Origin: Xestospongia bergquistia
Taxonomy: Eukaryota > Porifera > Demospongiae > Haplosclerida > Petrosiidae
DNA length: 64,000 nt
Assembly: GCA_963965975.1 (NCBI GenBank)
Contig: OZ014422.1
Span: 2,108,001-2,172,000 of the forward strand
Reading direction: 5' to 3'
This document shows positions 20,003 to 63,431 of the stretch, piece by piece (the stretch's first letter is position 1; every line of letters begins with the position of its first letter). The notes under the pieces were generated by a model. That model saw only the letters and a program-made list of their open reading frames with translations. It was not told the DNA's origin and made no database searches. The position numbers were made by a program, and so were the translations under genes.

Positions 20003-21447
20003 TTAATAATACTTTGAATAAATTTCAGGTTTTTCCAAAGATTTCATTATGGCATCAGCTTTTGGGCCACCAGCTGCATTTCGTACAGCTGTGATAAGCA
20101 TTGCCCAAGTGAGATGAGCCTTCTTACTGGTTATCCTTACTAGTTTCTGATCTGCTTTAGTAATAGGGGCAACATTCTTTAAAGTCCACTCTGATATTTG
20201 AAGGGCCTGACCAACCTCAAACCATTTATCACCAACATCATTCAGCAACATTTTGACATCTTCTGGTCGAGGACGTTTTCTTAAAACATCTACTTTACCT
20301 ATAAAAAAAGGTTGATATTTTTTCATTTATTGACTATTTAGAGCAATGATCACTATATTCATTTACACATAGTGCTTACCAGTTACAGTTGTAGCACCTG
20401 TAAGTCCAGTAGCAGCTATGCCACTTATAAAAGATGGACTTGAGAGAGTGCTCCTAAAACATCGGACTGCTTCATCATGAAGACGTAATGGCTCTATATA
20501 ATTGAAAATAATTATTATTAACAAAATGTTCTTTACTCACGTTTGAGATACATTAGTCCTGTTGATGCTACGTATTGAGATGACATAGTTGAAGGTAGTT
20601 GTTGTGTTAAATCCAATATTGTTGTTATTGGAAGGTCGTGTTTGTTGATATTATCACATAGATGTTTAGTCCATATGCCACCATTAGTATCACTACCAAT
20701 ACTTGCATTATTGAGATCAGAGACAGCAACAACAATGTTGTTATAATTTGGTAGCATTATGAGTGGGAGTGGTTCCTTAACATCACTATCTTTAACATAT
20801 AACTGCACAAAAATTATGCATGGAAGTTGTTTGTATCGTCTTTTTGAAAAAAGAAAAACGATCCAGTCTAGGTAGACTTTCTCATCACCAAGTATAAGGT
20901 AAACACGACCATTAGAATCACAACTTCCATAACCAGTGTAATAGAAGGCAAAGAACTTGTAATACGTGCTATAGCTGAAATCTGCCACACCTTTAACAAG
21001 TGCCAGTAAATTTTTACAAGTTACTGTATCATCAACTATAGTAGCAAATCCAAGATCTTCAAAAGTTCCTATCATTGTTCCAGCATCATTTTCACTTTGT
21101 TCTGGTCTGTCCTCAGCAGCTACGATGAGTCCAATGCCACGAGCTTCTGTTTTTTTGTTTTCACATTCTTCTTTAACATTGTGCTCTTGCATCTGACCAA
21201 CTAACCCTTCTTTAATCTCAGCTATTGAAAATATAAAAATAGATCATCTGATATTAATCCATTTATTTAACAAACAAAAGGGACACGGGTAGTACTGTTG
21301 TAAAATGCTAACTATTAAATTTATACACACAAAGAAGCCGTATATTTTTGAATAAAACTTACGTAGGTCAGGTAGTGTCAATTCCTATGCATAAGAATTT
21401 GGAATATACAAGCAAGGTAATACAATTATATTTACCTTATCCGCCAT
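20003..21447 (-). CDS. Caspase-like pseudo-protease with C-terminal death domain (copy A)
   Basis: Five exons with exactly closing frame: 21447-21436, 21384-21363, 21221-20541, 20493-20380 and 20298-20003 (374 aa). It starts MADKELTLPDLPEIKEGL. Residues about 40-245 form a peptidase C14/caspase-like fold (FFAFYYTGYGSCDSNGRVYL, then NGGIWTKHLCDN, then PITTILDLTQ). The position of the catalytic His of YAGHG is Tyr109 (YTGYG), and the position of the catalytic Cys of DCC is Tyr153 (VQLYVKD). Both are lost, so the domain is predicted to be catalytically dead. After a linker (LRLHDEAVRCFRSTLSSPSF), residues about 285-374 form a death domain (VGDKWFEVGQALQISEWTL, HLTWAMLITAVRNAAGG). Likely a scaffold or decoy in cell-death or innate signalling; that role is inference. 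Confidence 0.82.
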
Positions 21448-21975
21448 TTTAAGTTGTCAGCTGTGAATTGTCAACATGAAACACACCCAGTTCACATTTT
21501 TGAACCAGCACATGAATAAGCTTAATAGTGCTCTAATTGGAAATCAATATGCAAGGTACTTTGTACTTCATTAGTGTTTAATTGATTACCCACAACACTC
21601 AAAATTATGTTAGTAGCTATAGGGTTGTCTAATGTATTAATAACAGTAAACCAGGTATACTGTAGTTATTAGAATTCCTTTCCCCAACAGGTTACATATG
21701 CATCATTCTAACTCAAACAGACTGCACTACAGTCATGAACTAGATTTGTAACTTAAGTTTTATTAAAAATAGCATCCATTATTTCCCAGGTTCAAATTAT
21801 AATTACACTTTCATTTTTAATTTAGACCAAATACACACTTGATCATTAAAATGACAACTATCATATTTAGTAAAGTACAAAATTAAAGTAATTATAACTG
21901 TTTTTCTAAATATGTATTATAAGAAAAAAGACATTTTTAAAATCAATTCAAAGAAGCTGTTAGTAAATCTTAAGA
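21448..21975. other. Spacer between death-fold copies A and B
   Basis: It holds the promoter of copy A and the 3' flank of copy B. No other feature was recognised. Confidence 0.45.
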
Positions 21976-24491
21976 TCAACACTTTGGACAACTATGAGGA
22001 CTGGCTAAGAATTTTGTAATCCCATCAGCTTTGTCTTTACCACAACTGTTTCTTACTGCTCCAATGAGATGAAACCATTTGAGATTGGTACATTTTGAGA
22101 TCATTAATCGAATAGCTGTAGCATTATCTCCCCTTATGTTCTTTAATTTATTAGGATCAAGTACTTTGCTTTGTAATTTCCCACCAATTTCCCGCCACTT
22201 ATCAGCAATACCTTGATTAGTAAATGCTTCAAAAACATGGCCAGGACAAGGTCGGTCTGAATCTTTATAAACTCGACCTACATAGCAAATACATGAGATC
22301 TTCTGGTAAGTTGATACTTACATCAAATGTATATTTAATACAATGGCTACTAACTAAAGTCTGTTCATGTTAACTTTGACCTTTCTTTTTAATAACTTTG
22401 TCTTTTGTTGTTCAAGTTTTAATTATAAAGTACCAAATTACTCCTAATAGCACTTCCTGTTAATAAAGTGGAAGTCTGTAATTAATAATGTTTGACAGTT
22501 ATAAAGTTAGCAGTGTTATTCATAAGTATAGCCATAAGGACACATGTAAATTAGTGTATTAAAACACAATGAAGTCATTAAAGTGATTTACAAAGTCTAA
22601 GTTTTATTGATAGTTTAATAATTTCTGATAAGACTAGCAATGTGTTTGAATACCTCTGGTCCCTCCAGTAGAGACTGAATGTCCTCCACTACCAATGCAA
22701 CTTGGTGGCATACCAGCAGCTGGAGAAGCACCAGAAATAAACTGCAAGTACCACTCATTATTAATTGGTTCAGTTGGCTCTAATGTGAAATGGGAGAGTC
22801 ATAAATTTAGTTTTATATTGTCTATTAACTAACTAGGCATATAAGATGATGCTGTGTACTGAGGAAAAAAGTTATGGGGACTGCTGCTACATTTATGCCA
22901 CACCAGGTCCAATATGGTTGTTATAGGAAGTTGGTGGTCTTTAAATTCTTGAACTGTATCACGCAGACACTTTGTCCAGATGCCACCATCAATGTTACGT
23001 TTTTCCTCTCGACTTAGACCAGAGATAGCGACAACAAAATTACTGCAAGTTGGTAATTTTAATACAGGAGATGCTATATCATCAACAGTGCGACAAGACA
23101 GCTCAAAGAGAAGTATACAAGGACACCTTCCTTGTAATTTTTTAACTATTTCATACAGATTGACTTTTTGTTCTGGTCTGTCTCCCAATAAAATATACAC
23201 TTGACCATTAGAATCACAGCCACCATATCCAGTGAAGTACAAAAGTAAGGACGGAGTGTCTAGTAAGGACGGAGTGTCTAGCTTATCAAGGAAATTTTGT
23301 GAACTATCAATAGGCCACTTTTCAAAACTGTAATTAGCTGCAAAAGATAACTTTATATTTTCAACATCTTCTTCATCGTCTCGTAGACAGACTAGCAGAC
23401 AAGTACCAACTACAATAAATAAATAAATATATATATATGTTATAGTAATATTTTATGTTATAGTAAGATTGTGTATATAGGGATTTTGCAAAATCCCTGA
23501 AACTTTCAGGGAGTTTGTGAAATCCTTTTTCACTTAGGTACTTACCTAAACCCTAACCTGAACTCCCTAAGTGAAAAAGTGATTTCACAAACTCGGCTCT
23601 GTGTAACACATATAAACCTCCTAGGTTAATATTTGAAAATACAAAACCTGATAGCTTAAATAGCTAGTTCTTCCTTCATAAACAACAAAGTAGCAAGTTT
23701 ATATAGACCTGATGTTAAGCTTAATCACTTCTATCATTGTAAATAGGTCCATATGTTATATAAATTTGCCAACTTGTGACTTTAAAAAGAATATTGCTTT
23801 GATAGCTGTGAGCTATTTTAAGGAGCAATATTGACAAGTTAGCATTAATCTCATGATAGGTTATATCAGATATAACATAGTTCATCAATCTACATGTGTA
23901 TTACATAAACCTGCCAAGTCATGATTTTGTAAAAGATATCACCCTCAGGCTTATAGACCTGAGATGATATCTTTCACAAATTGTCTCATTGGTAGGTTTA
24001 TATAACACTCTTAACCATGATATATTATATAATACTGTTGTTGGAAAATAGACTTATTTGTAGTTGTAGGCTAGGTATACTAACTTTTAGCATATGAATA
24101 TATTTATTAAAATGCAACTTTCTTCCTACCCAGGTATGCTGAAGGCAAAGTTAACACTGGTCACAAGCTGACAACACCAGGACCACACAGATAATTTGTG
24201 TGACCTTAAGGTGACAACAAATCATTATGCAGATCTTAGCATGTAATATTGGATGCAGGTTCAATGACTATCTGTTATACTAATACTATAGATACTTAAC
24301 CTATGTGTAGGTTGAGTATCTATGCTAATATTCCAGTTCTCATAGCTAAAAGAGGATATATAAACAACTACTGTTTATATAATATTACAGTTACAGGACT
24401 CACGAGACGTGGTAGTTTCCTAGAAGGAAAAGAGTAAGAATGCAACTTACTGTAACAACCAATACATGTAAGCACAAACCTTAGTCGCCAT
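21976..24491 (-). CDS. Caspase-like pseudo-protease with C-terminal death domain (copy B)
   Basis: Five exons with closed frame: 24491-24480, 24419-24404, 23409-22834, 22779-22654 and 22277-21976 (343 aa). It starts MATKETTTSLGTCLLVCLRD. The tiny first two exons (12 and 16 nt) have the same phases as copy A. The caspase-like region reads LLYFTGYGGCDSNGQVYILL, then CILLFELSCRTVDD, then DGGIWTKCLRDTV. The His position is Tyr71 and the D-x-Cys position is Ser114 (FELS). The dyad is therefore lost here as well. The fold is shorter at the N-terminus than in the gene at 57246. The C-terminal exon encodes a death domain (DRPCPGHVFEAFTNQGIADK, KWFHLIGAVRNSCGKDKADG) nearly identical to those at 58787 and 60853. 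An 18-bp in-frame duplication (LDTPSL twice) lies just before the active-site region. The 985-bp intron 2 is full of hairpins. Confidence 0.8.
23480..23594. repeat. Nested palindromes (MITE-like) in copy B intron 2
   Basis: Arms 23511-23538 and 23566-23594 pair (GAGTTTGTGAAATC with GATTTCACAAACTC, and TTTTCACTTAGG with CCTAAGTGAAAA). They are preceded by the short perfect palindromes GGGATTTTGCAAAATCCC and CCTGAAACTTTCAGG. Probably a short foldback transposon. Confidence 0.75.
23771..24331. other. Cluster of imperfect hairpins in copy B intron 2 (possible small-RNA precursors)
   Basis: Three separate stems occur in 560 bp. First, 23771-23840 has AATATTGCT/AGCAATATT and ATAGCT/AGCTAT arms. 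Second, 23904-24001 has ATAAACCTGCCAA/TTGGTAGGTTTAT outer arms and AAAGATATCA with CCTCAGG/CCTGAG inner arms, with an 8-nt loop. Third, 24279-24331 pairs TATAGATACTTAACCTA with TAGGTTGAGTATCTAT around a 4-nt loop. The imperfect stems of 25-45 bp look like pre-miRNA hairpins, but MITE relics are equally possible. Confidence 0.35.
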
Positions 24492-24613
24492 ACTTTTTAT
24501 GTTAATAGATTAGACACGCCCTTAATTAATAATTGCGTCAAAAAATGTGTTATATTATAAAGATGACTTCACAACCAAAAGTAGTTATAAATGCTGTACG
24601 ACATTGAAAAAAA

Positions 24614-27600
24614 TTAACATTGATGATACATACATTGTGAAACAAGATGAATAGCCTTTGAATCAATATCTGAAAATGAAATAGGAATACAGTCTGTTTT
24701 GCCAGACAACCATTGACGACCTTTATGAGCCATGAGATACCATTCAGTTCTTAACTGAGGAAAATGAGTATCAAGAAATGCCAAGGCGAGGGCTGTAGCC
24801 CAGAAATGGCCAGAATGAAGGCCATTAACGCTAAGATGTGAGGAGTGTCCATTTGATATAGGTAGCTCTGATATAATTTTAATGGGTACACCAATTGCTA
24901 CTGCAAGAGAAGGCAGTAGAGGCCACGCACCAGAGGGTAACTGCATTTGAAGAAGAGGAATATAATTCGCATGAAGATCAAAATGAGCTGATAACAGTTG
25001 ATTATTATCAGATGAACTTGAACAAGTTTCCTCCACCTCATTGTTATCCACATATCCATTGGAATAAACTTCGTCAAATTGGTTTGACTGCTCTAAACGT
25101 TCTGAATCAACATAGTCAGGAGGCAATAAGGATATTTTGTCCCGAGGAGCTTGAGAAGAAAGGTGACTTAAAGAGGTAGCTTCATTTGACTGTTCTTGAG
25201 AACTATTGGATGAGGTACTAGAGCGAGAGATGTAGTAGAAATCAGGGAGTACCAATTCGCGGTGACTATTCCAATGGATTCGACTTGTCTTGTTTTGATA
25301 ATAATCTTGATCTTCAATACGTTCTCCGGTCTCAATGGTAGCAGTGTCATCATCCATATTAACCAGGCCAAGTGTTGCCACATTGACTGCTGTCTTAACA
25401 ACATTATTAATGCTGGAAGCTGTCTTCTTAGCAAGAGAAGACAGAGAGAAGGAGAGAGATGAAAACACAGAAGATATAGAAGAATCATCAGAAGAAGGAT
25501 CCTTGCTACGAGGACGTTTTCTAATAGGAACATTAACTAACATGATGTCATCCTGTCCTCCTTTGTCTACTCTCTTTGGTCCATTCCAAGGTAGGATTTG
25601 GCAGACTTTACTTCCTTCATTGGATGCACAATAATGAGTGTATGGAAAATAAGGCACACCAGACATCAAACTTATACTGACCAATTCATCACAAAGACTT
25701 TCATAGTCGCATTGTTCTTCTTGGTGTGGAGTGGTACCATTGACTCGAGGTCTCTTTGTAGGAGGTCCATCTTCATTGTGAGGTTTTTGAAATCGAGTCT
25801 GTATCAACTGGAATTCAAGAGCAGCCATCTTAGCCCAAGCTGAGGATTGAAGAATGGCTACTATCCTGTCAGATGTCATCAAACTCTCCTCTGCTAGACA
25901 AGACATGGTATACTTTATTTCTTGTGTTCTCCCATCATCTTCTACAATGTAGCCAGAGCAAGAAGCAGAGGATATGAGACCAGATGTACTACTACTGCTT
26001 TGTGATACTTGAGATGTTTTCTTTAGAGCACTGTAGCTAGTCTGAGTACTTCCAGGATAGAGAAGAGGAGGGACAAATGAGGGGAATATAGTCGTTGTGG
26101 TAAAGTCAGGAGGAGGAGACAGAGTTATTGAAACATCTCTGAGATAAGGTGTTAAACAACTGTGAAATACTTCCATCACCTGTACAAAAGTAAACAAAAG
26201 ATCAATGTAATAAAATCATTCAAAAACAGTTTTGATGGTGGCAGTACTAACATTGAAGGCTAAACAGTTAACCAGAAGGTATGGTGTTACTGCTAAGAAA
26301 TGCTTTACTCAAGTTAATGGGCACAATCAGTTATGTCCAAGCATTTGTGGCATGAATAAATTAATTCATCAGTTCATTCGGTTTTAAACGTATTTTTATT
26401 CATGGTTGTATACAATGATAGAATAAATGAAAACAAAGGACAACCTTAGGATCATCTAGCACACCTCACATGCCAGGTAGAAACAATAAAATTACATTCA
26501 AAAGACAGAATATTTAGTTACCAGCCATCATCTTTGTACCTTGGTTTGTAGTCTGTCCTTCTCTCTGATAACCCTATACTGACCTCCTGTTTCAGTAGCT
26601 AGACCGGCCATGAGCTCAGAGCATATTTCAGGTCCCCAAGCAAAGGTATGAATCCTATATGCATAAAAAACAAAAACATACAAAATATATTTTGTGATTG
26701 TTGTAATGAATTGTCTTCTAAAGAAGGCATATCTCTAAAACAATACACATGTGTACTAGAACAGCTACCAAAACACAAAATAGACTCTATGAGCCATGTG
26801 GAACACTACAAGAAACAGGCTGTAGAATTACAACATTAACAGCACACATGTACACTACTACAGTCAGTAATCAATATGCATAAAACAATGTACAACACAG
26901 CTGATAAGCACTACACACACATACAGACATAAACAAGCTAGTATCACACATTCACAGGTTCTACAGACGAGAAAAATCATGGCCTACCCACCCACTTTGG
27001 TACTACATACAAAAACTATTGTATACCAGAGACTAATCAAATTAAAGGCAAAGCCCACTATCAATAAAAGGTTTATAAAGAGTAAAAGCCTCTATGTAAA
27101 CATAGCCATTAGAAATAACACTTACCAGACACAACAGTGTCCAAGAATTTAACTAGTAAAATGATAAGATAGGAACCAAGAAATTGGGAGAGTAGCAGCA
27201 AACTTGTTGACTGTTGTCAGTTTTTACTATTAAATATTATCTGTTAATAAAAACATAGTTCCATGCAGAATTACACTTAAGACATGTGGGTTGATAGTAA
27301 GCATGCATGTAATAACTGTGAAATATGCAGACATTAAGTCATAAAGCAAGTTACCACAAAACTATATATAACTATAGTTAGCTCAATTGCATTTCACAAC
27401 TCCATAGAGTGAATTCACTTGTCATGGAAGAGACAGACAGTCAGGCTATTCTAGATTATCATTTAATATTAGCAATTAGTATAGTAACAACCAGGCTTAA
27501 AATAACATGGGGAGTTATGCCAAACTTGTTATTCCTCCCTCATCTCTGATATAAGAAACAATATTAAGGTACAGACACAAGTTTTAAGGTAATAAAAATA

Positions 27601-29298
27601 ATCAAAAAACTATGGACTTTCTTGAGGTGAGGGTCCCATGGGATCTAGTGGTTGTTGCTATGGGAAAGAATGTCATGGTAACACCATGTTTTTTAGGGCT
27701 ATGTGATTAAGCAGTAATTGCAGACTAAGTTTGGTAAACAATTGGATTAGACATAACAAAATAAATCACAACATCATACTGTCCCAAAACAGTGTTTGAT
27801 ATATTATATATAAAATTACAAATAAACAAAGTAGAACATTTAACAAGAGAGTTAAAAGCTGCCAAAATATTTAAAAATTATTAAAAATCCCTATTGTCTA
27901 GAACAATGAACTAGTCTATGCCAAGATGATCATTTTAAGATTAAGACATCCTATCCAAAACCCTTAGCGTCTATAGGATAGCTCAGTTAATTAGTAATTA
28001 CTTTATATAACAATCAACTATTTTACTTAGACAATGTTCTGTTCTCACTTTGTCATTAGTCTATGCCTGGTAGCTGTCTGTAACACAACTTGGACATTAG
28101 GTACTCCACCATCGGTTATAAGAAATAAGTGACGAGGCAAGCCATTGCAGGATTGCTTCTTCAAGACCCATCTGAGTGGAGTAAGAAGCTCTGTTCCACC
28201 TAGGCAAGCTTGTAGCTTGTTGATGAATTGGATTCCAAGTTCAATGTTTTTATCAGATGCCTGCATACTTGTTTGGAAACGGAATCTGTACTTGGAACCA
28301 AATGCAATTACATTAAAGTAACATTGACTAGGTAAACTTTTTATTGCTAGTAAAAGGGACTCAGCTGCACTTTGAATCTTTTGACCGCTCATGCTACCGC
28401 TACAATCCACCATGAAAATAAATTCACCTGGGACAAAACTAACTGGACCAGAAGGCATTTTTGTGAACATACAGCTAGCCATCTGTAGTCCATCACATAT
28501 AACTTCTTGTTCTTTGTTTTGTAATTGTAAATTTATAGGCTTGGTCATTAATATTGTATGACACTGTGTGAGGATTGGATGGGTGGATTGAATTGATAAA
28601 CGTAATAGAAATCCAGGACTTTCATCATACATTGTATCCTCCTGATGCAATGCTTCGATGGAGGTTTCCGTTTCAGTAATTTGATGCTCAATAACAATGG
28701 AATCATGCAAAGGAGTCACAGAATGCACACAAGTACCATTAGGTATTGACATGGATACTTTGAGTGATGTTTCGTTAGCAGGGAGCATACTTATAAAATA
28801 CCAATCAAGTGCTGTTGTGCCTGCAATTGATACAATAGTTGGAGCAATATCCAAAACAACCTCCAGTAGTAAAATTAACACATGATCACTTGCAACATTG
28901 CCAATGTAGAGTAGTAGGTCATTTGGTGATTGTGCAGCACCATAGTTCATAACTATATTCTCTAGGTTGGACTTGACTTGTGAATAAGGTAATTGACATG
29001 TTTGTTTGTCCGTTTTATGCCAGTTGGCTTTAGTGATATGGAGGTCTTCTGAAGAGACAAGTTGCGAGTCTTGAAGCAGTTGGAGCTGGCATTTCGTAAC
29101 ACGAAGTTTGCATCTAAATCCTGATGTATGGTACAATAGGGAAGGCACGTAGAGGACAGCGTCGTGTAGAGGTTGTCGACTAGTTTCAAAACGAATCGAC
29201 GCTTTTCCTAAGCAAATTGATCCAATGCTGGTGAACTGGAGATCACATTTTGTCGGTATACAAGGTTTATCGTCCTCTACTAAGAAAGCACTGAACAT
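24614..29298 (-). CDS. VIT and von Willebrand factor A domain protein (VWA5 family)
   Basis: Three coding exons, 29298-28049, 26654-26540 and 26179-24614, with closed frame (976 aa). Start at ATG 29298 (MFSAFLVEDDKPCIP); the codon two positions upstream is GTG. The N-terminal about 270 residues match a VIT-like region. A VWA domain follows with a complete MIDAS start, FIFMVDCSGSMSGQKI, then GGTELLTPL and HLFLITDGGVPN, continuing into TFAWGPEICSELMAGLATET in exon 2. The C-terminal half is low-complexity Ser-rich and ends with a helical segment rich in Trp and His (GHFWATALALAFLDTHFPQL), as in VWA5B-type proteins. The cellular role of the family is poorly defined. The 1.4-kb intron 1 (26655-28048) shows no other feature. 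Divergent from ALYREF. Confidence 0.82.
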
Positions 29299-29714
29299 CA
29301 CCACGCGTTGAACTTCAGATCGCGATTGAAATGATGAGTTTTGATGAGTGTAACTATACCTGCAGCACTAAAGCAGGAAACCATGTTTAGTCAACCATCC
29401 CAGTCTCCTGTCTAGTCAAATTGAGTGTCGGTCAAGTGATCAAAGATGATTAAAAGCCGCCGCCAATTAGACTAGGTTGTGGTGGGCGTTACTGCGCATG
29501 CGCAGTTTTGCATTTTGAAACACGCCAAGTTGCTAGTGAGATTTTTCACCTTTCTCTTCATTGTGTGAAGCTGTTCCTTTACTCTTTGTTAAATCGATCT
29601 TTCGTTAGAATATCTTCAAAGACTCCTGCAAAGTTCCAGAGCTATTTTTCAAAATTGAGCAGACTCTACTTGGGACAATTTTTGAACTTTTAGTAGCAAC
29701 ACCTTCGACAAAAC
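29299..29714. promoter_or_regulatory. Bidirectional promoter region, VWA5-like/ALYREF
   Basis: 416 bp between divergent start codons, containing GCGCATGCGCAG at about 29492-29503, a palindromic NRF1-type motif common in housekeeping promoters. Confidence 0.6.
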
Positions 29715-31148
29715 ATGGCAGATTTACTAGATCAACCATTGGACGCTTTCATTCGTGCCAAGAAAACTGGTGGCAGAGGACGCGGTAGAGCTAGAGGACG
29801 AGGAGCAAGAGGTGGAAGAGGAAGAGGGCGTAGTGGAGGAGCAGTTAGAAGAGGCCAAACTGGAGGCTTTTTTCAAGCAAATCAACGAGTTCGTTACATC
29901 TCTCTCAATCTTTCTTCTTAGGTGTTATTTTTACAATTGTCCCTTCCCTTTAAGAATCCCGATGTTAAAATTTTTGGCAGCCAGAAATGGCATCCAAAAA
30001 AGCTATAAGATCATCCATTGTGCATGTGATTTGTTTAAATTCATCCCCTTCAAACCTGTCAAAAATGATGGGTCAATAAATCTGGTCGTGCACCAGAACA
30101 AAAGGGGTTTTTGATTCAAGAGTTATTTGAATCCCAGTGGCTAACGATAGTAGGTCTTGAGTTTAGTGGATACCTGTATGCACCTGCCCTCATGTGCTTA
30201 TATGTAAGGTGTACACTGTTGGACTGGACTTTCATTGTGATGACAACCATGTGTAGCACACACACCTACCTACATTTACTACTACAAAACTACGAACATT
30301 TCATCTCTCTACTGTACACTCCAATCATTATAGCCACCACGACAAATGGCAGGAAAATGGCAACACGATATGTTTCAAGGAGAATTCAATGGAGTAGCTC
30401 AGGTCCAAACTCCCATGGTCACTCGAAGTGCCACAATTTCTAAATTGCTTATTTCAAACTTAGATTATGGTGTATCAGATGAGGACATCAAGGTAAGCAA
30501 AACTTAGTTCTGAACATGTTCATATTTCTACCTCCTAATACTGCTAGTGTAAGCCATGCTGCTTTGTTTTATTATTTCAGGAACTCTTCCGGGAGTTTGG
30601 ACGTCTGAGAAAGGCTGAGGTTCATTACGACAAAAGTGGTCGCTCAATGGGCACAGCTCAAGTAATATTTGAGCGAAATGTTGATGCTTTAAAAGCTATG
30701 AAGCAATACAATGGAGTTCCATTAGATGGTCTGCTTATTTGAATAAAGAAAATATCATACATTATGTTTTGATATTTCTTCTAGGACGTCCCATGACAAT
30801 ACAAATAATGGATAGCCTTGGTCAAACAAAATCTTTCACTTCTACACCTAACAAGACCAATGTTCGTCAACGAGTAGGAGCTCGTCCCGTCAGGTATTGC
30901 CCTCGCCTATTGTCTAATGTTACATTTGTTATATAGAGGTGGTAAAGGAACACCCAGAGGAAGAGGAACTGGTGGACGTGGGCGAGGTAGAGGTGGCCGA
31001 GGTGGTGGACGCAAGCCTCTGCCAACATCAGAACAGCTGGATGCTGAACTTGATGCTTACAAACAAGTAATATAACTTGATTTTATAACTTGTTTTTATA
31101 ACTTGTTTTTAAATGTATTTTTAGTCTGCAGATGCATGGGAATCATGA
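29715..31148 (+). CDS. ALYREF: mRNA export adaptor ALYREF / THO complex subunit 4
   Basis: Begins [20 protein letters not shown], the conserved UAP56-binding motif of Aly/REF, followed by an RGG-rich stretch. Later exons: [14 protein letters not shown], then an RRM with RNP2 [15 protein letters not shown] and [20 protein letters not shown], and [21 protein letters not shown] second RG-rich region follows, and the C-terminal [17 protein letters not shown] motif ends at TGA 31146-31148. Domain order and both terminal UAP56-binding motifs match the family. It couples splicing/TREX to NXF1-mediated mRNA export from the nucleus. The exon 1 donor (about 29895) is the least certain border because the best in-frame site (GTTCGT) is weak. 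Confidence 0.93.
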
Positions 31149-53540: not shown

Positions 53541-53768
53541 GATCAGGACTATCCAGACAAAGCACAGATCACGTCAAAATCAGTAGGATATCTTCATTAC
53601 CTGATATACTTACAATTGTAGAATCGAAGAATCTTTCGGTGTAGAGGAAGGGTTGCAGAAGTCACGTGAGCAAAAAATCAGTTGTCACGTGGTGAGTGGT
53701 AAAAGAGATAGAAGGTAATGTAGTTTGTTTTCATAATATTTGTTCATATCATTTAGAAGTAGAATAAA
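53541..53768. promoter_or_regulatory. Bidirectional promoter region, PH/coiled-coil gene and PSMD12
   Basis: 228 bp between divergent start codons, with paired CACGTG-like sites (GTCACGTGAGC at about 53662 and TCACGTGGT at about 53685). Confidence 0.55.
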
Positions 53769-56339
53769 ATGGCTGATTCAGGGAAATTAGTTAAAATGGA
53801 GATTGATCACTCCAGTACAGTGGATCAAGTTTTACCTGAATGTCAGGAAATGGCAAAAGTAAGATTGCGCCAACTCATTTAATTGCAGTGTAATCTGTAT
53901 TTATAAATTTTACCATAGAATGGTGAAATAAAAGAGTCTTTTGAGAAACTTCTATCGCTGGAGAAGCAGACACGTTTGGTAAGAATACTGTCTTGTCAAT
54001 TCAGTAGTTATAATACTGAAAGTTAATGTACTGCCAGTAACTGATTGACTTGATTAATAACAATTAATTTTGTCATAAACAGCATTATAAATATAATAGA
54101 AACATATAATAATAATAATAATCATGTGACTGTGTTTGTATTTTATTCATTTGCTCAACTTAACGATTGGAATAGATTGGCCATCTTAAAGTACAGCTAT
54201 AATATTTTACTTTAGGGCGGAGATGCACTCTCAACTGGTCGAGTCTTAAAGGCCATTGTACAATTGTGTTTTGACCTACAAGACTGGGATGCTCTCAATG
54301 AACACATAATTCTATTATCTAAAAGGAGAAGTCAATTAAAAACGGTATAACATTAACAACATGTTAGTAATATTATTATTATTGTTTTTATCTTCAGGCT
54401 GTGGCAACTATGGTAGAGGAATGCTGTAAGTTTGTGGATCAAACTCCTGATAAAGAAACAAAATTGAAATTGATCGATACTCTTCGCACAGTCACAGAAG
54501 GAAAGGTGAGTGTGTCATGTGACAGACTATGTCATGCTTAGTATTGTCTTTGTAGATTTATGTAGAAGTACCTAGAGCAAGGCTTACAATGGAGTTGGTA
54601 AAAATGACTGAAGCAGATGGAGAAGTCGCAAAAGCAGCAGACATTTTACAAGAGTTACAAGTAATGGTTGTTAGTGATCTCAAATATAATCTATTGGTAT
54701 TAGGTGGAGACATATGGGTCAATGGAACGAGAGGAAAAGGTCCTTTTTATCATTGAACAAATGAGACTGTGTCTTGCTAAGAAAGATTATATTCGTGCTC
54801 AGATTATCAGCAAGAAAATCAGTACAAAGTTCTTCTTTGCTGATACTGATACTATACAGGTTAGATACACCAGCTTAGAAATGACATGATTCTTTAAGAC
54901 TATTAGTTGATGCATTTAGGATTACTTTATATTGAAACTGATACGTTATCTGAGATCATGTTTACAAGACAAGCTTTGGTTATTATTGTAGTTGATATGT
55001 ACCACATCTTACTTTTTGTTATGATCATTTCAGTTGGCTTACTGTGGAATATATTCTAGTTCCATAGTATCTGATATGTATCTCTTGTTGTCTCTTAGGA
55101 CTTGAAATTGCGTTACTATAATCTGATGATAGAATTATGCCAACATGACAACAACTATTTAGCTATCTGTCGACATTATAGAGCCATTTTTGACACACCC
55201 AAAGTACAAGAAAATGAACAGGCTTGGAAGGAGGTAGTATCATATCATTTGTTGTCTCATTGTTGAGGCTTCCCTTATAGGCTCTTAAGAACTCAGTACT
55301 GTATGTGTTGTTGGCTCCTCATGATAATGAACAGTCTGATCTCATGCATCGTATATATGAAGAGAAGAAATTACAACAACTACCAGCATACAAGTCAGTC
55401 ATCATTATCATCAGTACATGTTGTATTGTCTAGGAACATCTCCTGTGTACATTTCTATGTTATTTAACGAATACAAAATCATATACTATTTTCATTGTCA
55501 GGACTTTAATGGAGTGTTTTCGACAACGTGAACTGCTCAACTGGGATGTTTTTCAGGCATCATACACTGTTGTGTTGAGAGAAGGCATTCCCAATGAACC
55601 AGCCACTGAAGTATTTGCTGTGGGAACTGAAGTCGGAGAACAACATTGGAATGATTTTCAGAAGAAACTTATTGAACATGTGAGATAAATCATTTCATTA
55701 TTACTTTATTTCTCCCCCCCTCTCTCTCCCTCTCCCTCTCTCTTTCTCCCCCTCTCTCCCTTTAGAATCTTCGTGTAGTTTCAGGGTATTATACTAGGAT
55801 ATCAATGACTAGACTATCAATACTATTATCACTAAGTGAACAGGTAAGTCATGCTCACAACAGTATCACTATAAGATGTGTTATTTACCTTGTCATCATC
55901 ATCTTGGACTTTGTTTTCTAATTTTTATAAGTATAAAACATACTATTACCAATTCTTATAGAAATGTCATATCAAACTTGTAGTTATATAGTAAATGTAA
56001 TAAGTTGCTTTGTGATCACATGATAATCATAAGATGAAATCCTATAATGTAAAGGGCCTACAGAACCAGTACATATTCCAAACAGGCATAGCTAAATATG
56101 TTTTATTGGTGATTCTATTTCTCTAGGAAACTGAAAGTTATCTCTCTGAACTAGTTACCAAGAAAACTATATTTGCTAGGATAGATCGACCAGCTGGGAT
56201 AGTTAGTTTTGCTCAAACTAAAGATCCCAGTGAAATTTTAAATGAATGGTCCACTAATCTAAATAATTTGATGACACTCGTCAGTAAAACAACACATCTT
56301 ATTAACAAGGAGGAGATGATTCATAGATTAGTAAAATAA
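53769..56339 (+). CDS. PSMD12: 26S proteasome regulatory subunit Rpn5
   Basis: Starts [20 protein letters not shown] and ends [16 protein letters not shown]-like ([17 protein letters not shown]). The N-terminal helical repeats include [30 protein letters not shown] and [16 protein letters not shown]. They are followed by [39 protein letters not shown] and [15 protein letters not shown]. The C-terminal PCI/winged-helix part reads [20 protein letters not shown] and [14 protein letters not shown]. These match PSMD12 along the full length. It is a lid subunit of the 19S regulatory particle. About ten exons with GT/AG borders. No anomaly seen. Confidence 0.95.
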
Positions 56340-56689
56340 GACAATTTCTAATTAATAGGTTCTATTATTGCATTGTCTATGTATCCTATTATCCTTATTG
56401 TCAGTACTGCTAATAGTTAATAATAATAATATTGAAATCCCATTTATTGGGATATATACTGTATTTGATGAAAATAAAATTTCATATTATTTTAGTGTTA
56501 GTCACATCATAAATTGTAGAGTATTAAATTTAAAAAAATATGACTAAATACAATATAGCATCTAAAATTAAAATTGCCATCTTGTAACAACTTTGTTATC
56601 GCCAGTGTTCAGTAAATTTAACTCTCATTTGATTGTGCATACATTTGATGTAGACAAAGAATGGTGGTAAATTAACTCATAAAGATTTT
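56340..56689. other. PSMD12 3' flank, no gene seen
   Basis: AT-rich; AATAAAA at about 56475 is a likely PSMD12 poly(A) signal. Confidence 0.55.
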
Positions 56690-57245
56690 TGTACTTTGAA
56701 GGCCAGATGGTAAAAAAAGTTAGAATTATGTTATCATAACATCTAAAAGTATAAAAGAAGGAACACATTGTCTCTCTTTCTCTCTCTCTCTCTATATATA
56801 TACAAGTTTACAAAGTACTATTAGTTTATGCTACCGAAATGAAAAAAGATTTATTGACTTTAACACTTTCCATCCTTGTATATGTGGTACTCCCAAATAC
56901 ATGTTCACTGACAAGGATTGTTAAGAGAACTTCCTGAATGGAGCTGAAGTCCATCATTGAGTTTACATTTTCAAATAGTATTTTGATTTCATTTCAACAG
57001 TGAGATACATGGGTGACTGTGACAAGGCAGATAATATTGAAGATTTTTTGTCCTTATACTTGTTCAATAAAATAAATTTACAGCACACATAATTATTATT
57101 GATAATTTAATTATTTATTCACAATTCTAATAATTACCCAACTTGTGATCTATGAATCTTATTAGCAAAACTGTAATTAGTCTCGCGTAGCCAGCCCCTC
57201 CCTCTTGGGAAGGGAGGGGCTGGCTACGCGAGACTAAACTGTAAT
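56690..57245 (+). repeat. 5' unit of segmental tandem duplication (upstream copy)
   Basis: Aligns with 59584-60148, offset about 2.9 kb, including TTTTTGTACTTTGAAGG, TTATGTTATCATAACATCTA and TTGATTTCATTTCAACAGTG. The repeat carries the promoter regions of the two following death-domain genes. Confidence 0.88.
57178..57236. mobile_element. 59-bp palindromic MITE abutting the copy C start codon
   Basis: Perfect 26-bp inverted arms (starting TAGTCTCGCGTAGCCAGC) around a 7-nt loop. It is flanked by 9-bp direct repeats AACTGTAAT (57169-57177 and 57237-57245). The right repeat touches the ATG at 57246. The duplicated locus at 60149 lacks the element. Confidence 0.85.
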
Positions 57246-59100
57246 ATGGCAGAAGGTAAGCTGATAGCACTTTACATTGAAAGTACTGTCTTTCACTAGG
57301 TACAAGTGCCACATCTCAGCTGCAAGGAGGCAATCCTGCTCATCCAGTAAGAAGATATAGATTTCCTCATTTTAACTTTTTAAATACATGTTTAGTGAAA
57401 AATTTTCTTGCCTTTTCTTATTATAGGGACATTCTAATGCATGGACACGTCGTAAGTAATGTTGGCATTGTATTTAAAGTAATTACAATTTTTTGTCTAT
57501 ATAGCTAAGCCTTCTAATGAAACATATAAAGAAGTGAAGGAGGAGTTTGACAAAATTTTGATTACAAAAGATAATGTTGGTGTTGCTATCATATTGGGCA
57601 TCGTTAAGTATGGTCCTCAAGGCACTGACTGTGATGTTGAACTGATCGAAACCACATTTGAAAGCCTTAAATTTGGAGTGTATGTTGTCAAAAATCCAGA
57701 CATTGACAAGATTGCTGCTGTCATAGAAGTTGCCAGAACAGCAATCTATCCTATATCATACCAGTTTATAGTGATGTATTATGCTGGACATGGAGGAAGT
57801 GAAGATGGCAAAGGTTATATCATACCTTGTGGTGATAATGACCCCAGGTTTTACATTGACGAAGGGATCGTCTTTCCATTCCAGCCGTCCCAAGCCCCTA
57901 ATCTCTCTGATCGTTATCGATTGTTCTTTTTTGATTGTTGTCTCAAAACAAGCTCCAAAGCAGGAAAGGTACCTATCATGCAAAAATCTAATCCTACAAG
58001 TCCTCCCAAACAACCCTCATTTCTTCCACCACGTGGTCAATGTATCATTGCCTATGCTACATCTCTGGAAGCTGCTTCAAGCGGTAATTACATAAGTGGA
58101 GGGATCTGGACCAAGAAATTATGTGATAACCTCCGGTATGATGTCCCCATTTCTACTGTACTCGATATGACCTGGAGTGATGTTGTTGAAGAAACATGTC
58201 AGAAATTGGGCAAAAAAATTCAAGGACCTCATTATGTGTCCTCTGTTGGAAGCCTATTTCTTAGAGGTTAGTTTCTGTTTAGAAGTAACTAATAGGTCCC
58301 TTAGTATAGACTGTATATTCCAAGTCTTGCACATAATACTTACTGCCTTGAGGATTAACAAAAATAATTTTTCATAGTTCATAGGTAATGTATGTACACA
58401 GCAACAAACCTTATAGACACTGATGACATCATAGAATTTGTGGCATGGCTCTCATGCTCAGCATTCAGATTTTACAAAAAAATTAAATTTTATGTCTAGA
58501 TCCTTATCAACGAAAAAAAGATGACATCTTAAAACATTTTGGTAATCCTGCTCCTATGGCTGTGGTGAATCCTACACCCACAGTACAGCAAAGACCAAGG
58601 AAAGGAGGTATGTAATAGATAAGAAAGAAGGTAAATGAGTTTGCATAAACAGTACATAACACTTGAACAATAACGCACTGTACATGCTTTCATTTATCTT
58701 TGTACAATGTTATATTTATAGATCATGATATGTTCTCATCTTTTCAGATATTATTGATATTAAGATCTCATCTATTTGTTATATAGGCATAGGCCGAGTT
58801 TATACAAATTCAGATCCACCTTGTCCTGGCCATGTTTTCGAAGCATTCACTAATCAAGGTATTGCTGATAGGTGGAAGGAAATTGGTGGAAAATTACAAA
58901 GCAAAGTACTTGATCCTACTAAATTAAAGATGATTATGGGAGATAGTGCTACAGCTATCCAATTAATGATCTCAAAATGTACCGATCTCAAATGGTTTCA
59001 TCTCATTGGAGCAGTAAGAAACAGTTGTGGTGAAGACAAAGCTGATGGGATTACAAAATTCTTAGCCAGTCCTCATAGTTGTCCAAAGTGTCCACCTTAA
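57246..59100 (+). CDS. Caspase-like protease with C-terminal death domain (copy C, intact dyad)
   Basis: Six exons with closed frame: 57246-57255, 57300-57346, 57427-57451, 57505-58266, 58500-58607 and 58787-59100 (421 aa). It starts MAEGTSATSQLQGGNPAHPG. Residues about 40-280 are a caspase-like (peptidase C14) domain: VGVAIILGIVKYGPQGTDCD, catalytic His123 in MYYAGHGGSEDGKGYIIPCG, catalytic Cys173 in FFFDCCLKTSSKAGK, then a small-subunit-like GGIWTKKLCDNLRYDVPIST. A linker with NPTPTVQQRPRKGG leads to a death domain (CPGHVFEAFTNQGIADRWKE, KWFHLIGAVRNSCGEDKADG). The dyad is intact, unlike the paralogues at 20003 and 21976. The protease-then-death-domain order is the reverse of typical vertebrate initiator caspases, which carry the death fold first. 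Acts presumably in the cytosol in cell death or immune signalling; substrate unknown. Confidence 0.86.
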
Positions 59101-59280
59101 ACGTTACTAACTTGAAAAGACAGCTTTTTGAATTGATTTTAATAAATGCCTTTTTACACATATTTAGAAAAAAAGTTATAAATACTCTCCCTTTGTACTT
59201 TACTAAATATGGTGATTGTCATTTTAATGATCGAGTGAGAGTATTTCATTGTTGGTTTCATCTATACATTGTGTATACAT

Positions 59281-59289
59281 TTAAAATAA

Positions 59290-59329
<40 letters not shown>

Positions 59330-59679
59330 TATAATCTAGGGTATTATGGCTTAGTTAAGAATTCTCATGAAATAAAGTCAATCTACTTAATACTAATTTT
59401 CTAAACTCTTGGTAACTGTACAGAAACATTCTATCAAATCATATGAAGATTGCCAATGTTGTCTTGCAGCAGTGGTGATATGTGAAAATGAAGCATCACC
59501 AGAGACTTTTCAGAAAGAAGCAAACCAAACTACATAAGTTCACGACATTATCAAGGACACATCACCATTGAAAGGTAAATATTTTTGTACTTTGAAGGTC
59601 AGATGGTAAAAAAAAAATTTGAATTATGTTATCATAACATCTAACAGTATAAAAGAAGGAACACACTGTATATATATAC

Positions 59680-59772
<93 letters not shown>

Positions 59773-59780
59773 TATATACA
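59281..59780. repeat. TA/TG microsatellites between copies C and D
   Basis: TA runs at about 59297-59322 and 59730-59780, and a TG run at about 59689-59714, within the duplicated upstream segment. Confidence 0.9.
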
Positions 59781-60148
59781 AACATACAAGTTTACAAAGT
59801 ATTATTAGTTTATGCTACCAACTTAAAAAAAGATTTTAGAAAATTATTGACTTTAACTTTCCATCCTTGTATATGTGGTACTCCCAAATACATGTTGACT
59901 GACAAGGATTGTTGAGAGAATTTTCTGAATGGAGCTGAAGTCCATCATTGAGTTTACATTTTCAAATAGTATTTTGATTTCATTTCAACAGTGAAATATA
60001 TGGGTAACTGTGACAAGGCAGATAATATTGAAGATTTTTGTCCTCATACTTGTTCAATAAAATAAATTTGCAGTAATAATTGATAATTATATATTCACAA
60101 TTCTAATAATTACCCAACTTTTGATCTATGAATCTTATTAGCAAAAAT
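59584..60148 (+). repeat. 5' unit of segmental tandem duplication (downstream copy)
   Basis: Near-identical to 56690-57245, but without the palindromic MITE and with a longer TA/TG tract. Confidence 0.88.
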
Positions 60149-61154
60149 ATGGCAGACGGTTAGCTGATAACACTATTACATTGACAGTACTGTCTTTCAC
60201 TAGGTACAGGTGCCCCATTTCAGCTGCAAGAAAACAATCCTGTATATCCACCTCCTCTACAAGGAAACAATCCTGTATATCCACCTCCTCTACAAAGAGA
60301 CAATCCTGTATATCCACCTCCTCTACAAGGAGACAATCCTGTATACCCACCTCCTCTACAAGGAGACAATCCTGTATACCCACCTCAGCTACCAGGAAGC
60401 CTTCCATACCCACTTCAGATACAAGATCCTGCATACCCTCCTCAGTCACAAGGAGGGACTGGATACCATTTTGAAAATGCTGCGTATCCACCTGCTCATC
60501 CAGTAAGAAGATATAGATTTCCTCATTTTAACTTTTTAAATACATGTTTAGTGAATAATTTTTTTGCCTTTTCTTATTATAGGAACATTCTAATGCATGG
60601 ACACGTTGTAAGTAATGTTGCTATTGTATTTAAAGCAATTATAATTTTTTGTCTACATAGCTGAGCCTTCTATGGCTGATACGAATACTACACCCACAGT
60701 ACAACAAGTACCAGAGAAAGGAGGTACCGACAATGTAATAGATGAGAAAGAAGGTAAATAGCAAGTTAGCAAGTTTGCTAAACAGCACATAACACTTGAG
60801 CAATAATCCAATGTACATGCTTTCATTAAGATCTCATGTATTTGTCATATAGCCAGAGTTTATAAAAATTCAGACCCACCTTGTCCTGGCCATGTTTTTG
60901 AAGCATTCAGTAATCAAGATATTACTGATAAGTGGCAAGAAATTGGTGGAAAATTACAAACCAGCATACTTGTTCCTAATAAATTAAGGAACATTAGGGG
61001 AAATAATGCTACAGCTATCCAATTAATGATCTCAAAATGTACCAACCTCAAATGGTTTCATCTCATTGGAGCAGTAAGAAACAGTTGTGGTCAAAACAAA
61101 GCTGATGGCATTGCAAAATTCTTAGACAGTCCTCATAGTTGTCCAAAGTGTTGA
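60149..61154 (+). CDS. Death-domain protein with Pro-rich repeats, caspase domain deleted (copy D)
   Basis: Five exons with closed frame: 60149-60158, 60204-60502, 60583-60607, 60661-60753 and 60853-61154 (242 aa). Exons 1-3 and 5 are clear duplicates of copy C. Exon 2 has expanded into five 11-residue repeats (GNNPVYPPPLQ type) plus degenerate copies. Exon 4 fuses the start of the copy C caspase exon (EPS) to the middle of the copy C linker exon (TPTVQQVPEKGG), so the whole protease domain is missing. The death domain (CPGHVFEAFSNQDITDKWQE, KWFHLIGAVRNSCGQNKADG) is intact. The first donor (GTTAGC) is weaker than in copy C. Probably a death-domain adaptor or decoy. Expression is not shown, so a recent pseudogene remains possible, although the frame is fully open. 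Confidence 0.75.
60230..60394 (+). repeat. 33-bp coding minisatellite (NPVYPPPLQ repeats)
   Basis: Five in-frame units of 33 bp in exon 2 of copy D; the copy C exon has only the flanking sequence (LQGGNPAHP). Confidence 0.92.
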
Positions 61155-61309
61155 ACTTAAACTTTACTAACTTGAAAAGACAATTGATTTTAATAAATGT
61201 CTTTTTTACACATATTTAGAAAAACATTTATAAATACTTCCCTTTGTACTTTACTAACTATGGTAGTTGTCATTTTAATGGTCAAGTGCGTAAACACAAC
61301 CTTCCAATA
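61155..61309. other. 3' flank of copy D
   Basis: Matches the 3' flank of copy C at 59101-59230 (ACTTGAAAAGACA, ACACATATTTAGAAAAA), so the duplication extends past the stop codon. Confidence 0.7.
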
Positions 61310-61505
61310 ACAACGATATTGCACAACATCAAATACCTTCAACTATATCATCTCAATGTGTAGCATCAACAGGACTAATGTATCTCAATTGCAAACATGA
61401 GTAGAGAACATTGTATTATTAATAATTATTTATAATTATATAGACCCACCATTACATCTTCATGATGAAGCGGTTAAACATTTTAGGAGCACTCTCTCAA
61501 TATAA
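61310..61505 (+). pseudogene. Fragment of a copy-A-type caspase-like gene
   Basis: 61322-61400 resembles the end of copy A exon 3 (STMSSQYVASTGLMYLK; here STISSQCVASTGLMYL). 61441-61500 resembles copy A exon 4 (LRLHDEAVRCFRSTLSS; here LHLHDEAVKHFRSTLS, then a stop). The intervening segment ends in ATATAG like the copy A intron. Upstream protease and downstream death-domain exons are missing. Confidence 0.75.
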
Positions 61506-61729
61506 GTGGTACAGGTACTACACCTTACCAGGTTACAATGTGTAAAATGAATATAGTAAAGAAATTAAATGAAATAATATTTACCTTTTTAAGGTAAAGT
61601 AGGTGTTTTAAGAAAATGAAACCCTTTTTATGAAAATATGTTATTTGTTTTTGAAATTTGAAACAGAGTGTGTCATTGTTGAGTGCATCTATACATTGTG
61701 TATACATATAAAATAATATTAATTATATA

Positions 61730-61773
<44 letters not shown>

Positions 61774-61899
61774 CACACACATTATAATCTATGGTATATG
61801 GCTTAGTTAAAAATTCTCACAACATAAAGTCAATGTACTTATACCAATTTTCTAAACTCTACCTAGGTAATTCAACAACAATTGGCAAGACGCTTTCAG

Positions 61900-61972
61900 T
61901 TATCTTTTCACAATGTTATATTTATAGGTCATGAGGTGTTCTTGTCTTTTCAGATGTTGTTAATATTTAGAT
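61900..61972 (+). pseudogene. Fragment of copy C intron 5
   Basis: Resembles 58692-58765 of copy C (CAATGTTATATTTATAG, CTTTTCAGATGTTGTTAATA), a further trace of local duplication. Confidence 0.55.
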
Positions 61973-62029
61973 AATTAGCAAAAGCAAATAGAATAAGTTT
62001 AGTAAACATAGTGGGCCCAGGGTACCTCA

Positions 62030-62222
62030 AGACATTATTCCCAATTGTATGAAACTTGACTATCTATTGGATTATGTGTATGAGAAAGATAGTTGTGGTA
62101 AACCCAAATTAAAGATTTCATGGAAGACTGTTCTAGACTCACTGGAAAAACCAGGTATTAGAGATAATGAAATAATGGATAGTATTCAAAATTTTTATGA
62201 ACAAAGACAAATTGAAAACTAA
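62030..62222 (+). pseudogene. Orphan C-terminal half of a death domain
   Basis: An open segment reads VPQDIIPNCMKLDYLLDYVY, then KISWKTVLDSLEKPGIRDNE and IMDSIQNFYEQRQIEN before a TAA. The W-x(5)-L-E-K-P pattern matches helices 5-6 of death domains at this locus (compare ITWAMLITAV-type and VTWETLLEVIETPPV). No start or upstream exon was found. It could instead be the last exon of an unmodelled gene. Confidence 0.5.
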
Positions 62223-62268
62223 ACGAAGGAATAATTAACAACTCTGTGTGATTTATAACTACTTTTGA

Positions 62269-62318
62269 TCTCGTTACCAGCCCCTCCCTTAACGGAAGAG
62301 GCTGGCTACGTCAGACTA
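62269..62318. mobile_element. Degenerate relative of the palindromic MITE
   Basis: Contains CCAGCCCCTCCCTTAACGGA and GAGGCTGGCTACG, i.e. both arms of the element at 57178 but with mismatches. It lies about 115 bp upstream of the next death-domain gene. Confidence 0.7.
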
Positions 62319-62433
62319 TAATTTTTGTATACAATCTATGATTTTAGTTAGTAGACCAAGTTTCCACGCCCATGCGTCATAAAATTTACTTAGGTGGATA
62401 CTTAATCCTTGTCAGCTGTTGTCACTGACGGTG

Positions 62434-63431
62434 ATGGGTGAGTTATATCATCATTGCTTTTCTTGTAGATATGTAGACTAATACAAAGTGTAATATAGTA
62501 TTAAGTAGTAGTAGATGCTGTATTAACATCGGCCAGTCAGTATATATATATAGAGCACTATGCATGTTAAGGGCCAGTTATGTTTAGAGAAGGTATAGTC
62601 ATTAAAGTCCCTTGTTTCTTCCCACACAATAGCAAACAACATTCAGAATATCCTTAAAAAATCTCCCGAGAAGAAAGATTTGATGTCTGTCTTATCAGAA
62701 GTTGCATTTGATTGGAGAAACATAGGAGAATCCCTTGAAGTTCCATTTGGCGAGTTACAGAGCTTACAATTTACTCCTCGACCTGATATATCAAAACTTT
62801 CAGACACATTACAAAAGTGGATTGACATGCGAACCTGTCCTGTTACATGGGAGACCCTTCTTGAAGTAATAGAAACTCCACCAGTCAATAAACCTCGTAT
62901 TGCCAGTAACATAAGGGAATACCTTGCTAGGGATGATGTTTATACGAAATATAAGGAACTAAAAGATTATCATCGGTAATGAGCTATGTATCGTGGTGTG
63001 TACTAATGTTATCTAAAACATAATGAAATGGATTGTTTACCTCTAGATCTCCCTCAATACAATTATATAAATACAAAACTTTTAGTAGTATATATATATG
63101 TTCTGTATCTTGCTATAAAAAAATTCATTTTTATTTTTTTGGTGCTAATTTTGTAGTGTTTGGTAGTAGTGAGTGTGTCTTTGAAATAATTGCATACCAA
63201 TTAATTATAACAATAATATGTTCAAGTTTTTACAGAGGATGTTATATCATAGGAGGTCTGATACCCATGTCAGGAGGTCCCATATCAGATCTATTTACAG
63301 GCATGCATATGGGACCTGAGGTAATGTTCATGACAACTCCAGGAGACATCCCTGGACGTAAAATAGGTGGACCAGGAAGAGAGGTAGGAGGAACTGGTGT
63401 TAGAACACCACCAGAATATTGCTTATGCTGA
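62434..63431 (+). CDS. Death-domain protein with Gly/Pro-rich tail (copy E)
   Basis: Three exons with closed frame: 62434-62437 (ATGG only), 62633-62975 and 63236-63431 (180 aa). The start reads MANNIQNILKKSPEKKDLMS. Residues about 15-105 are a death domain (VAFDWRNIGESLEVPFGELQ, TCPVTWETLLEVIETPPV, IREYLARDDVYTKYKELK). The tail is Gly, Met and Pro rich (YIIGGLIPMSGGPISDLFTG, GRKIGGPGREVGGTGVRTPP), unlike the other copies. No protease domain is present. The 4-nt first coding exon is supported by an exact GTGAGT donor and frame closure. Likely an adaptor that binds other death domains; partner unknown. Confidence 0.7.

Follow-up and report, generated by a model that had tools for sequence, protein, structure and literature searches.

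Do an intact caspase-fold protease, dead relatives of such proteases, and protease-free docking proteins that lie close together on a sponge chromosome belong to one regulatory system? The question is raised by five genes (A to E) in a window of 64,000 nucleotides from Xestospongia bergquistia (C12:2108001–2172000). An earlier note had proposed that they could form a local network of protease, pseudo-protease regulators, and adaptors. The window was read gene by gene and compared with the whole genome (146.5 Mb in 21 contigs).

Gene Models

Both strands were read, and exons were joined at GT–AG sites with matching phase. All five genes were recovered where they had been placed before. B, C, and D have complete ATG-to-stop frames with phase-consistent GT–AG introns, and E (62580–63431) has a complete frame in three exons. 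The three exons of A (minus strand, 23409–21976; protease, linker, and death domain) are open and in phase to the stop, and a search upstream found no in-phase start exon with a good donor. The features are listed below; exons for which no evidence is named come from exon joining.

23409–21976, minus strand: gene A, whole, three exons
22834–23409, minus strand: A, pseudo-protease exon with Tyr at the His position and either Ser or a shifted Cys (open frame; tblastn to the B-type family, E ~1e-20; no Pfam match)
22654–22779, minus strand: A, linker exon (GT–AG, phase 1 on both sides)
21976–22277, minus strand: A, death-domain exon, 88% identity to that of C (death-domain search)
21447–20003, minus strand: gene B, whole, complete frame
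21436–21447, minus strand: B, start exon
21363–21384, minus strand: B, 22-base exon
20541–21221, minus strand: B, pseudo-protease exon, Tyr for His and Tyr for Cys (PF00656, 33 bits; alignment)
20380–20493, minus strand: B, linker exon
20003–20298, minus strand: B, death-domain exon of another subtype than that of C, 34% identity (exon joining; death-domain searches)
57246–59100, plus strand: gene C, whole, complete frame
57246–57255, plus strand: C, start exon
57300–57346, plus strand: C, second exon
57427–57451, plus strand: C, 25-base exon
57505–58266, plus strand: C, intact protease exon with HGG and DCC (PF00656, 77 bits; alignments)
58500–58607, plus strand: C, linker exon
58793–59100, plus strand: C, death-domain exon (exon joining; death-domain search, AlphaFold, profile)
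60149–61154, plus strand: gene D, whole, complete frame
60149–60158, plus strand: D, start exon
60204–60502, plus strand: D, exon with NPVYPPPLQG-type repeats
60583–60607, plus strand: D, 25-base exon
60661–60723, plus strand: D, fused exon in which the first part of a C-type protease exon runs into the linker (exon joining; DNA comparison)
60853–61154, plus strand: D, death-domain exon, 79% identity to that of C (exon joining; death-domain search)
61292–61616, plus strand: relic of the end of a B-type gene, behind D (73% DNA identity to 20643–20276)
62580–63431, plus strand: gene E, whole, complete frame
62580–62592, plus strand: E, start exon
62633–62975, plus strand: E, death-domain exon (exon joining; Pfam Death, 13 bits, below cut-off)
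63236–63431, plus strand: E, Gly/Pro-rich tail exon (exon joining; a similar tail occurs in a copy beyond the window, in L039)

The fused exon of D has an alternative, longer donor at 60753 that also keeps the frame. Apart from the five genes, the window holds a von Willebrand A domain exon of a neighboring gene (28048–29367, minus strand) and a short open frame at 61992–62222 that resembles the second half of a death domain and is possibly a relic between D and E.

C Encodes an Intact Caspase-Fold Protease

As had been claimed for it, C retains the catalytic His and Cys (HGG and DCC in the alignment), and its protease exon matches Peptidase_C14 (PF00656) with 77 bits. The same profile gives 99 exon matches over the genome. 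Fifteen C-type copies were read (C, L030, L031, L032, L040, and L044 to L053), with further C-type matches, which are fragments or bear stops, left out of this set. The His, the Cys, and an Asp two residues before the Cys (C-2) are present in all 15 and are invariant across 13 aligned rows, in which another Asp (D44) is nearly invariant. Neither of the two S1 arginines of caspases occurs in any of the 15 rows, and Asp replaces the S1 Gln in all of them, L053 being gapped at both Arg positions and L051 and L052 unreliable at the last one. By contrast, 17 canonical caspases from this genome have the S1 Arg, Gln, and Arg in 17, 16, and 15 rows, respectively; row L027, which has none of the three, was set apart from these. 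Because the S1 residues are missing, C is, as read from its sequence, an intact caspase-fold protease and not a canonical caspase.

The residue at C-2 bears on specificity. The MALT1 motif has an Asp two residues before the Cys, and an Asp there goes with a basic P1 residue, as in para- and metacaspases. The Asp at C-2 of the C-type proteases thus suggests a preference for basic P1, but the rows do not show a complete acidic pocket. Could C then be a paracaspase-like signaling enzyme that cuts after basic residues, in immunity and not in cell death, with the other genes as its scaffold partners? The invariance of this Asp (15/15) and the missing S1 arginines would agree with such an enzyme, and type 2 paracaspases, which consist of the protease domain only, have been reported from Porifera (PMC5978004). 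However, when the PDB is searched with the C-type family profile, caspases come out on top (E 2.6e-15), and MALT1 does not occur among the best 60 of 205 matches; with C alone as the query, caspase-8 outscores MALT1 (E 4e-4 and 0.02). Moreover, none of the C-type rows is acidic at the third of the S1 positions of MALT1. A paracaspase-like role is therefore quite improbable. Like MALT1 and other paracaspases, C combines a caspase-fold protease with a death domain and has Asp at C-2, yet it fits neither of the layouts described for them: in type 1, the death domain is N-terminal and Ig domains are present (PMC5978004), whereas C has a short stretch before the protease and the death domain last. 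When four C-type proteins were compared with NCBIfam, the best family match reached 18 bits against a cut-off of 140.

The order of protease first and death domain last had been regarded as unusual, and it could have been a peculiarity of this locus. Copies elsewhere in the genome rule this out: a death-domain-like exon lies downstream on the same strand in nine of the 15 C-type copies (C, L030, L031, L032, L040, L044, L046, L048, and L050), so that the order is common in this subfamily. The other six have no death-domain-like exon of at least 70 aa within the 1.9–2.1 kb read. Among four C-type copies outside the window, L040 passes the Pfam Death cut-off, and L030, L031, and L032 fall below it. 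In two C-type copies on C4 (L051 and L052), the protease frame continues into unrelated sequence that recurs downstream.

A and B Belong to One Dead Clade

The substitutions described for A and B hold in part. Both have Tyr for His, and B has Tyr for Cys, but the Ser of A depends on the alignment: the Cys position holds Ser in an ungapped alignment, and a Cys stands one residue later when a gap is allowed. B matches PF00656 with 33 bits. A has no PF00656 match and was assigned to the B-type family by tblastn (E ~1e-20) and by its position in the tree; its protease domain is 20% identical to that of C. The relatives of B form a tandem cluster at C12:2042008–2063273, which ends 45 kb before the window starts; a few more pieces lie on C4. 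The fuller cluster genes that were read have two successive caspase-like exons, then a linker, then a death domain, and truncated copies are interspersed among them. The intron between the two tandem dead domains has equal phase on both sides in all five copies inspected, one of which has an in-frame stop in the second domain. PF00656 matches 11 of 12 dead-clade domains at E ≤ 0.1.

The His position is occupied by Tyr in all 12 aligned domains of A, B, and the cluster and by His in C and L040. When a motif pattern with this position left free was run on L036, L037, L038, and L041, Tyr was found in 14 of 14 motifs, or 16 of 16 with A and B added. Conversely, the Cys position varies. Cys is kept in eight of 13 dead rows (nine with the gapped alignment of A), Tyr is found in B and in the first domain of L041, and Arg is found in one copy; the position is alignment-dependent in A and unreliable in the second domain of L041. 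Since eight of the 13 still have the Cys, the presumed inactivity of the dead domains rests on the missing His.

A tree was built from 35 domains: ten dead rows, five C-type rows, 17 canonical caspases, two Roc-associated domains, and L027. The ten dead domains (A, B, and the upstream cluster) fall on one side of a branch with support of 99/98, next to the C-type rows. A starred branch separates the dead and C-type rows from the 17 canonical caspases and the two Roc-associated domains, with L027 on the C-type side. Support for the C-type group is weak (65/44), and A forms a long branch whose placement is unsure. Profiles of the dead and C-type domains match at 99.6% in hhalign and align over most of their length. 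A recent origin of A and B by duplication of C and loss of activity is ruled out by the single clade that they share with the upstream cluster (99/98). The earlier picture of five siblings that split locally into active and dead forms thus did not survive; by the alignment, the tree, and the 16 Tyr of 16, deadness looks like one old event in a larger clade. On the simplest reading of these sequences, a single His-to-Tyr change preceded both the tandem duplication and the parting of A and B.

An AlphaFold prediction for B, made from a three-row alignment, has a pLDDT of 36.5. Outside the dead clade, a canonical-looking caspase at C13:1491572–1492276 (L022) has Ala for Cys (FITSARGG) and is, by its residues, another pseudo-caspase of this genome.

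Death-Domain Subtypes

The Pfam Death model gives at least 150 matches over the genome. None of the five window genes passes its cut-off of 22.6; E reaches 13 bits, and A to D have no match. A profile built from 15 domains finds the death domains of FADD in the PDB (E 5e-4), and all of its ten matches are to FADD; by this comparison, the death domains of the locus are akin in sequence to known ones. For C, the AlphaFold model of the death domain has six helices (mean pLDDT 79.5), and its top Foldseek match is the weak one to the RIPK1 death domain (E 0.72), with none at E ≤ 0.001. An alignment of seven death-domain-like exons (A7: from L030, L031, L032, L044, L048, L050, and L041) has no death domain among its PDB matches. 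It matches at 97.4% another death-domain alignment with disjoint rows (A8: L046 twice, E, an E copy, L042, and L043), which itself finds FADD in the PDB at E 0.019. The 99.8% given by a second profile comparison is inflated because E was in both alignments.

The claim that the five genes share one death domain stands for three of them, namely C (intact), A (dead), and D (protease-free). Identity to the death domain of C is 88% in A, 79% in D, 47–54% in nine cluster copies, and 34% in B. The subtype of C has 13 genome matches at E ≤ 0.01, and all lie within 128 kb (C12:2041108–2169151). Among these 13 carriers is one intact protease; the others are dead, truncated, or protease-free as far as they were read. 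In the cluster, eight of the nine matching places were read; the protease motifs found in them all have Tyr. As a query, the death domain of B gives 121 weak matches to many other death domains, and that of E is 15–17% identical to that of C and belongs to a different subfamily. A single five-member death-domain family is thus ruled out, as B and E are of other subtypes, and their docking with C cannot be assumed. At pH 7, the death domains have predicted charges of +3 (C), +9 (A), +6 (D), +7 (B), and -1 (E); alone, these values say nothing on pairing.

The subtypes also bear on the possibility that the pseudo-proteases act as stand-alone scaffolds or decoys, for instance as decoys for microbial effectors or as immune adaptors, through their death domains and leave C untouched. 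The other subtype of B would suit this role, as would the family of L042 and L043, in which a caspase-like domain with no obvious Cys stands beside Roc-COR-like and death-domain-like exons. However, no death domains in the genome are closer to that of C than those of A, D, and the nine cluster copies, and this possibility is considered unlikely.

Duplication, Deletion, and Recombination

C and D arose by tandem duplication: their DNA corresponds from the 5' flank to the end of the first exons, in pieces of 87–95% identity. In the fourth exon of D, the first bases of the protease exon of C are joined to its linker, and the deletion junction is visible; the fused exon indicates that the protease was lost by internal deletion. 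Exon joining and the junction thus agree with the earlier statement that D has lost its protease, and on DNA comparison D is a duplicate of C minus the protease exon. The NPVYPPPLQG-type repeats of D, of which a mere trace is left in C, are possibly a candidate ligand for proline-binding domains.

The death-domain exons of A, C, and D and their 3' flanks have 86–88% DNA identity, and A and C have no DNA alignment upstream of that exon. A similar flank ends all three blocks, and a B-type relic lies behind D. The block identities and the relic imply that the blocks were duplicated and that recombination took place within or close to the intron that precedes the death-domain exon. Such recombination gave closely matching docking exons to an intact and a dead protease, with either of them as the possible donor. 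Relatives of E occur shortly past the end of the window: there, a C-type protease copy (L039:43–600, C12:2172043–2172600) is broken and partly duplicated, and two further E-type death-domain genes follow it.

Selection and Frame Maintenance

Another account is that C is the sole working gene, with A, D, and many of the cluster copies left behind by tandem duplication and recombination as debris that decays and has no regulatory role. Several observations favor such decay. A has no start exon that could be found, one cluster copy has an in-frame stop, a broken C-type copy lies past the window, and a B-type relic lies behind D. In addition, the death-domain exons of A, C, and D (pairwise dS 0.105–0.140) have dN/dS ratios of 0.55 (A–C), 0.58 (A–D), and 1.0 (C–D) that are indistinguishable from neutral; no selection was detected on the death domain of D (C–D dN/dS 1.0). 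Recent cluster copies are also near-neutral. In their second domain, dN/dS is 0.71–1.76 in ten pairs, none distinguishable from 1, and in their first domain it is 0.56–0.88, with p below 0.05 in one pair of ten.

Against decay of the dead clade as a whole, B shows constraint when compared with five cluster copies (dN/dS 0.49–0.64, p 0.0008–0.015), and so does A compared with B (0.52, p 8e-4). Frames also remain open against expectation. In 2000 runs of a neutral simulation without indels, scored for stop-free frames, the protease exon of B stayed stop-free in 0.35% of runs at 0.27 substitutions per site and in 0 at 0.53, and that of A in 0.75% at 0.3 and in 0 at 0.6. The simulation is uninformative on the A and D death domains, which stay stop-free in 27–51% of runs. 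Furthermore, Tyr is retained in 16 of 16 motifs though the Cys varies, and splice sites and phases are retained. Debris is therefore given an appreciable but minor chance. For comparison, C, L030, and L040 have pairwise dN/dS of 0.34–0.44 (p < 1e-5), and E has 0.37 (p 0.02) against its nearest copy and 1.03 against the other.

A Putative Docking System

The best explanation of the locus is that it is part of a lineage-specific C14-like caspase-fold family in which the death domain is C-terminal. Within this family, we lean, tentatively and short of confidence, toward a protease that is recruited by its death domain and has matched dead regulators, in the manner of caspase-8 and cFLIP. Death domains serve to assemble proteins, and initiator caspases are triggered by proximity. 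By analogy, death-domain partners would gather C and thereby activate it, provided that these death domains bind one another and that C is active. A, the upstream tandem pseudo-proteases, and D carry the same death-domain subtype, which would let them enter the assemblies of C and regulate it by pairing with C, by filling places without activity, or as bare docking modules. In the double dead proteins, the dimer interface could be satisfied internally, which would make them pure decoys. D, in turn, would only dock, either as a competitor or as an adaptor. The death domains of B and E are of other subtypes, and these two proteins need not join the assembly.

The network that the earlier note compared with caspase-8 and cFLIP is thereby narrowed: A, C, and D share one docking type, but B and E do not, and C has no caspase S1 residues, so that caspase-8 serves as an analogy and not as an identification. 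Caspase-8 and cFLIP (CFLAR) are described as an active protease and a dead homologue at an adjacent locus, with common recruitment domains and a short, docking-only form, and the dead homologue on the same platform can tune caspase activation (PMC11121540). Similarly, A is, by sequence, a dead caspase-fold homologue (Tyr for His) whose death domain is 88% identical to that of C, 35 kb away. The two systems differ in several respects. The recruitment domains are N-terminal DEDs in caspase-8 and cFLIP and one C-terminal death domain at this locus, C is without the caspase S1 residues of caspase-8, and the short form of cFLIP is a splice form, whereas D is a gene of its own. In addition, the dead domains at this locus did not arise by recent duplication of C.

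Other systems share parts of this arrangement. In Acropora, caspase-X joins two caspase-like domains in a single chain, of which the first has neither catalytic His nor Cys; its authors modeled it as c-FLIP/procaspase-8-like, with the dead domain thought to modulate the active one (PMC4715348). The cluster genes likewise have two caspase-like domains per chain, as in this other non-bilaterian animal. However, the second domain of caspase-X is active. In the cluster genes, neither of the two domains has the His, a death domain comes after them, and the intact protease is encoded elsewhere, by C. In the bacterial gingipain, a dead caspase-like subdomain is covalently paired with another in a caspase-dimer-like manner (PMC4626109); its second domain is active, and no death domain is mentioned for it, whereas the tandem domains of the cluster are both dead. 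Among sponges, death-domain/TRADD-N proteins are expanded in Amphimedon, with death-like domains and, in some, a caspase domain, but in the layout reported the death domains come first and the effector last, the reverse of C (PMC8195603). Dysidea avara is reported to have 128 DEATH-domain genes (PMC12909245). In titles and the beginnings of abstracts, no sponge family with protease first, death domain last, and dead members was found.

A more specific reading, which is possible but rather doubtful, is that of a cFLIP-like system with inverted layout that evolved independently in the sponge lineage. It would comprise one intact enzyme, a private death-domain subtype, some ten dead, truncated, or protease-free genes, and covalent pseudo-dimer decoys, with exchange of death-domain exons keeping them compatible. 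If the proposed docking system is real, active caspase-fold proteases and dead copies of them came to share a docking domain on more than one occasion in evolution, here in a layout that differs both from caspase-8/cFLIP and from coral caspase-X. The locus offers a compact test set: an intact enzyme, a dead partner with an 88% identical death domain, a gene that has no protease, and dead proteins of the tandem kind. When caspase-like genes are counted in genomes like this one, the totals include many domains incapable of enzymatic activity.

Other Caspase-Like Exons on C11 and C12

Two other stretches, L042 (C12:5391501–5397500) and L043 (C11:6371501–6377500), each contain a gene whose caspase-like exon scores 72 and 88 bits in Pfam, respectively, but has no obvious catalytic Cys (FFIDIN and FLIRCN). 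The other parts are a CAP-Gly-like stretch below the Pfam cut-off, a large exon, which in L042 has a COR-A match (35.5 bits, cut-off 35.3), and, last, a death-domain-like exon with no Pfam match. Together, the two stretches hold 34 caspase-like exons, 20 on C11 and 14 on C12, of which two were read.
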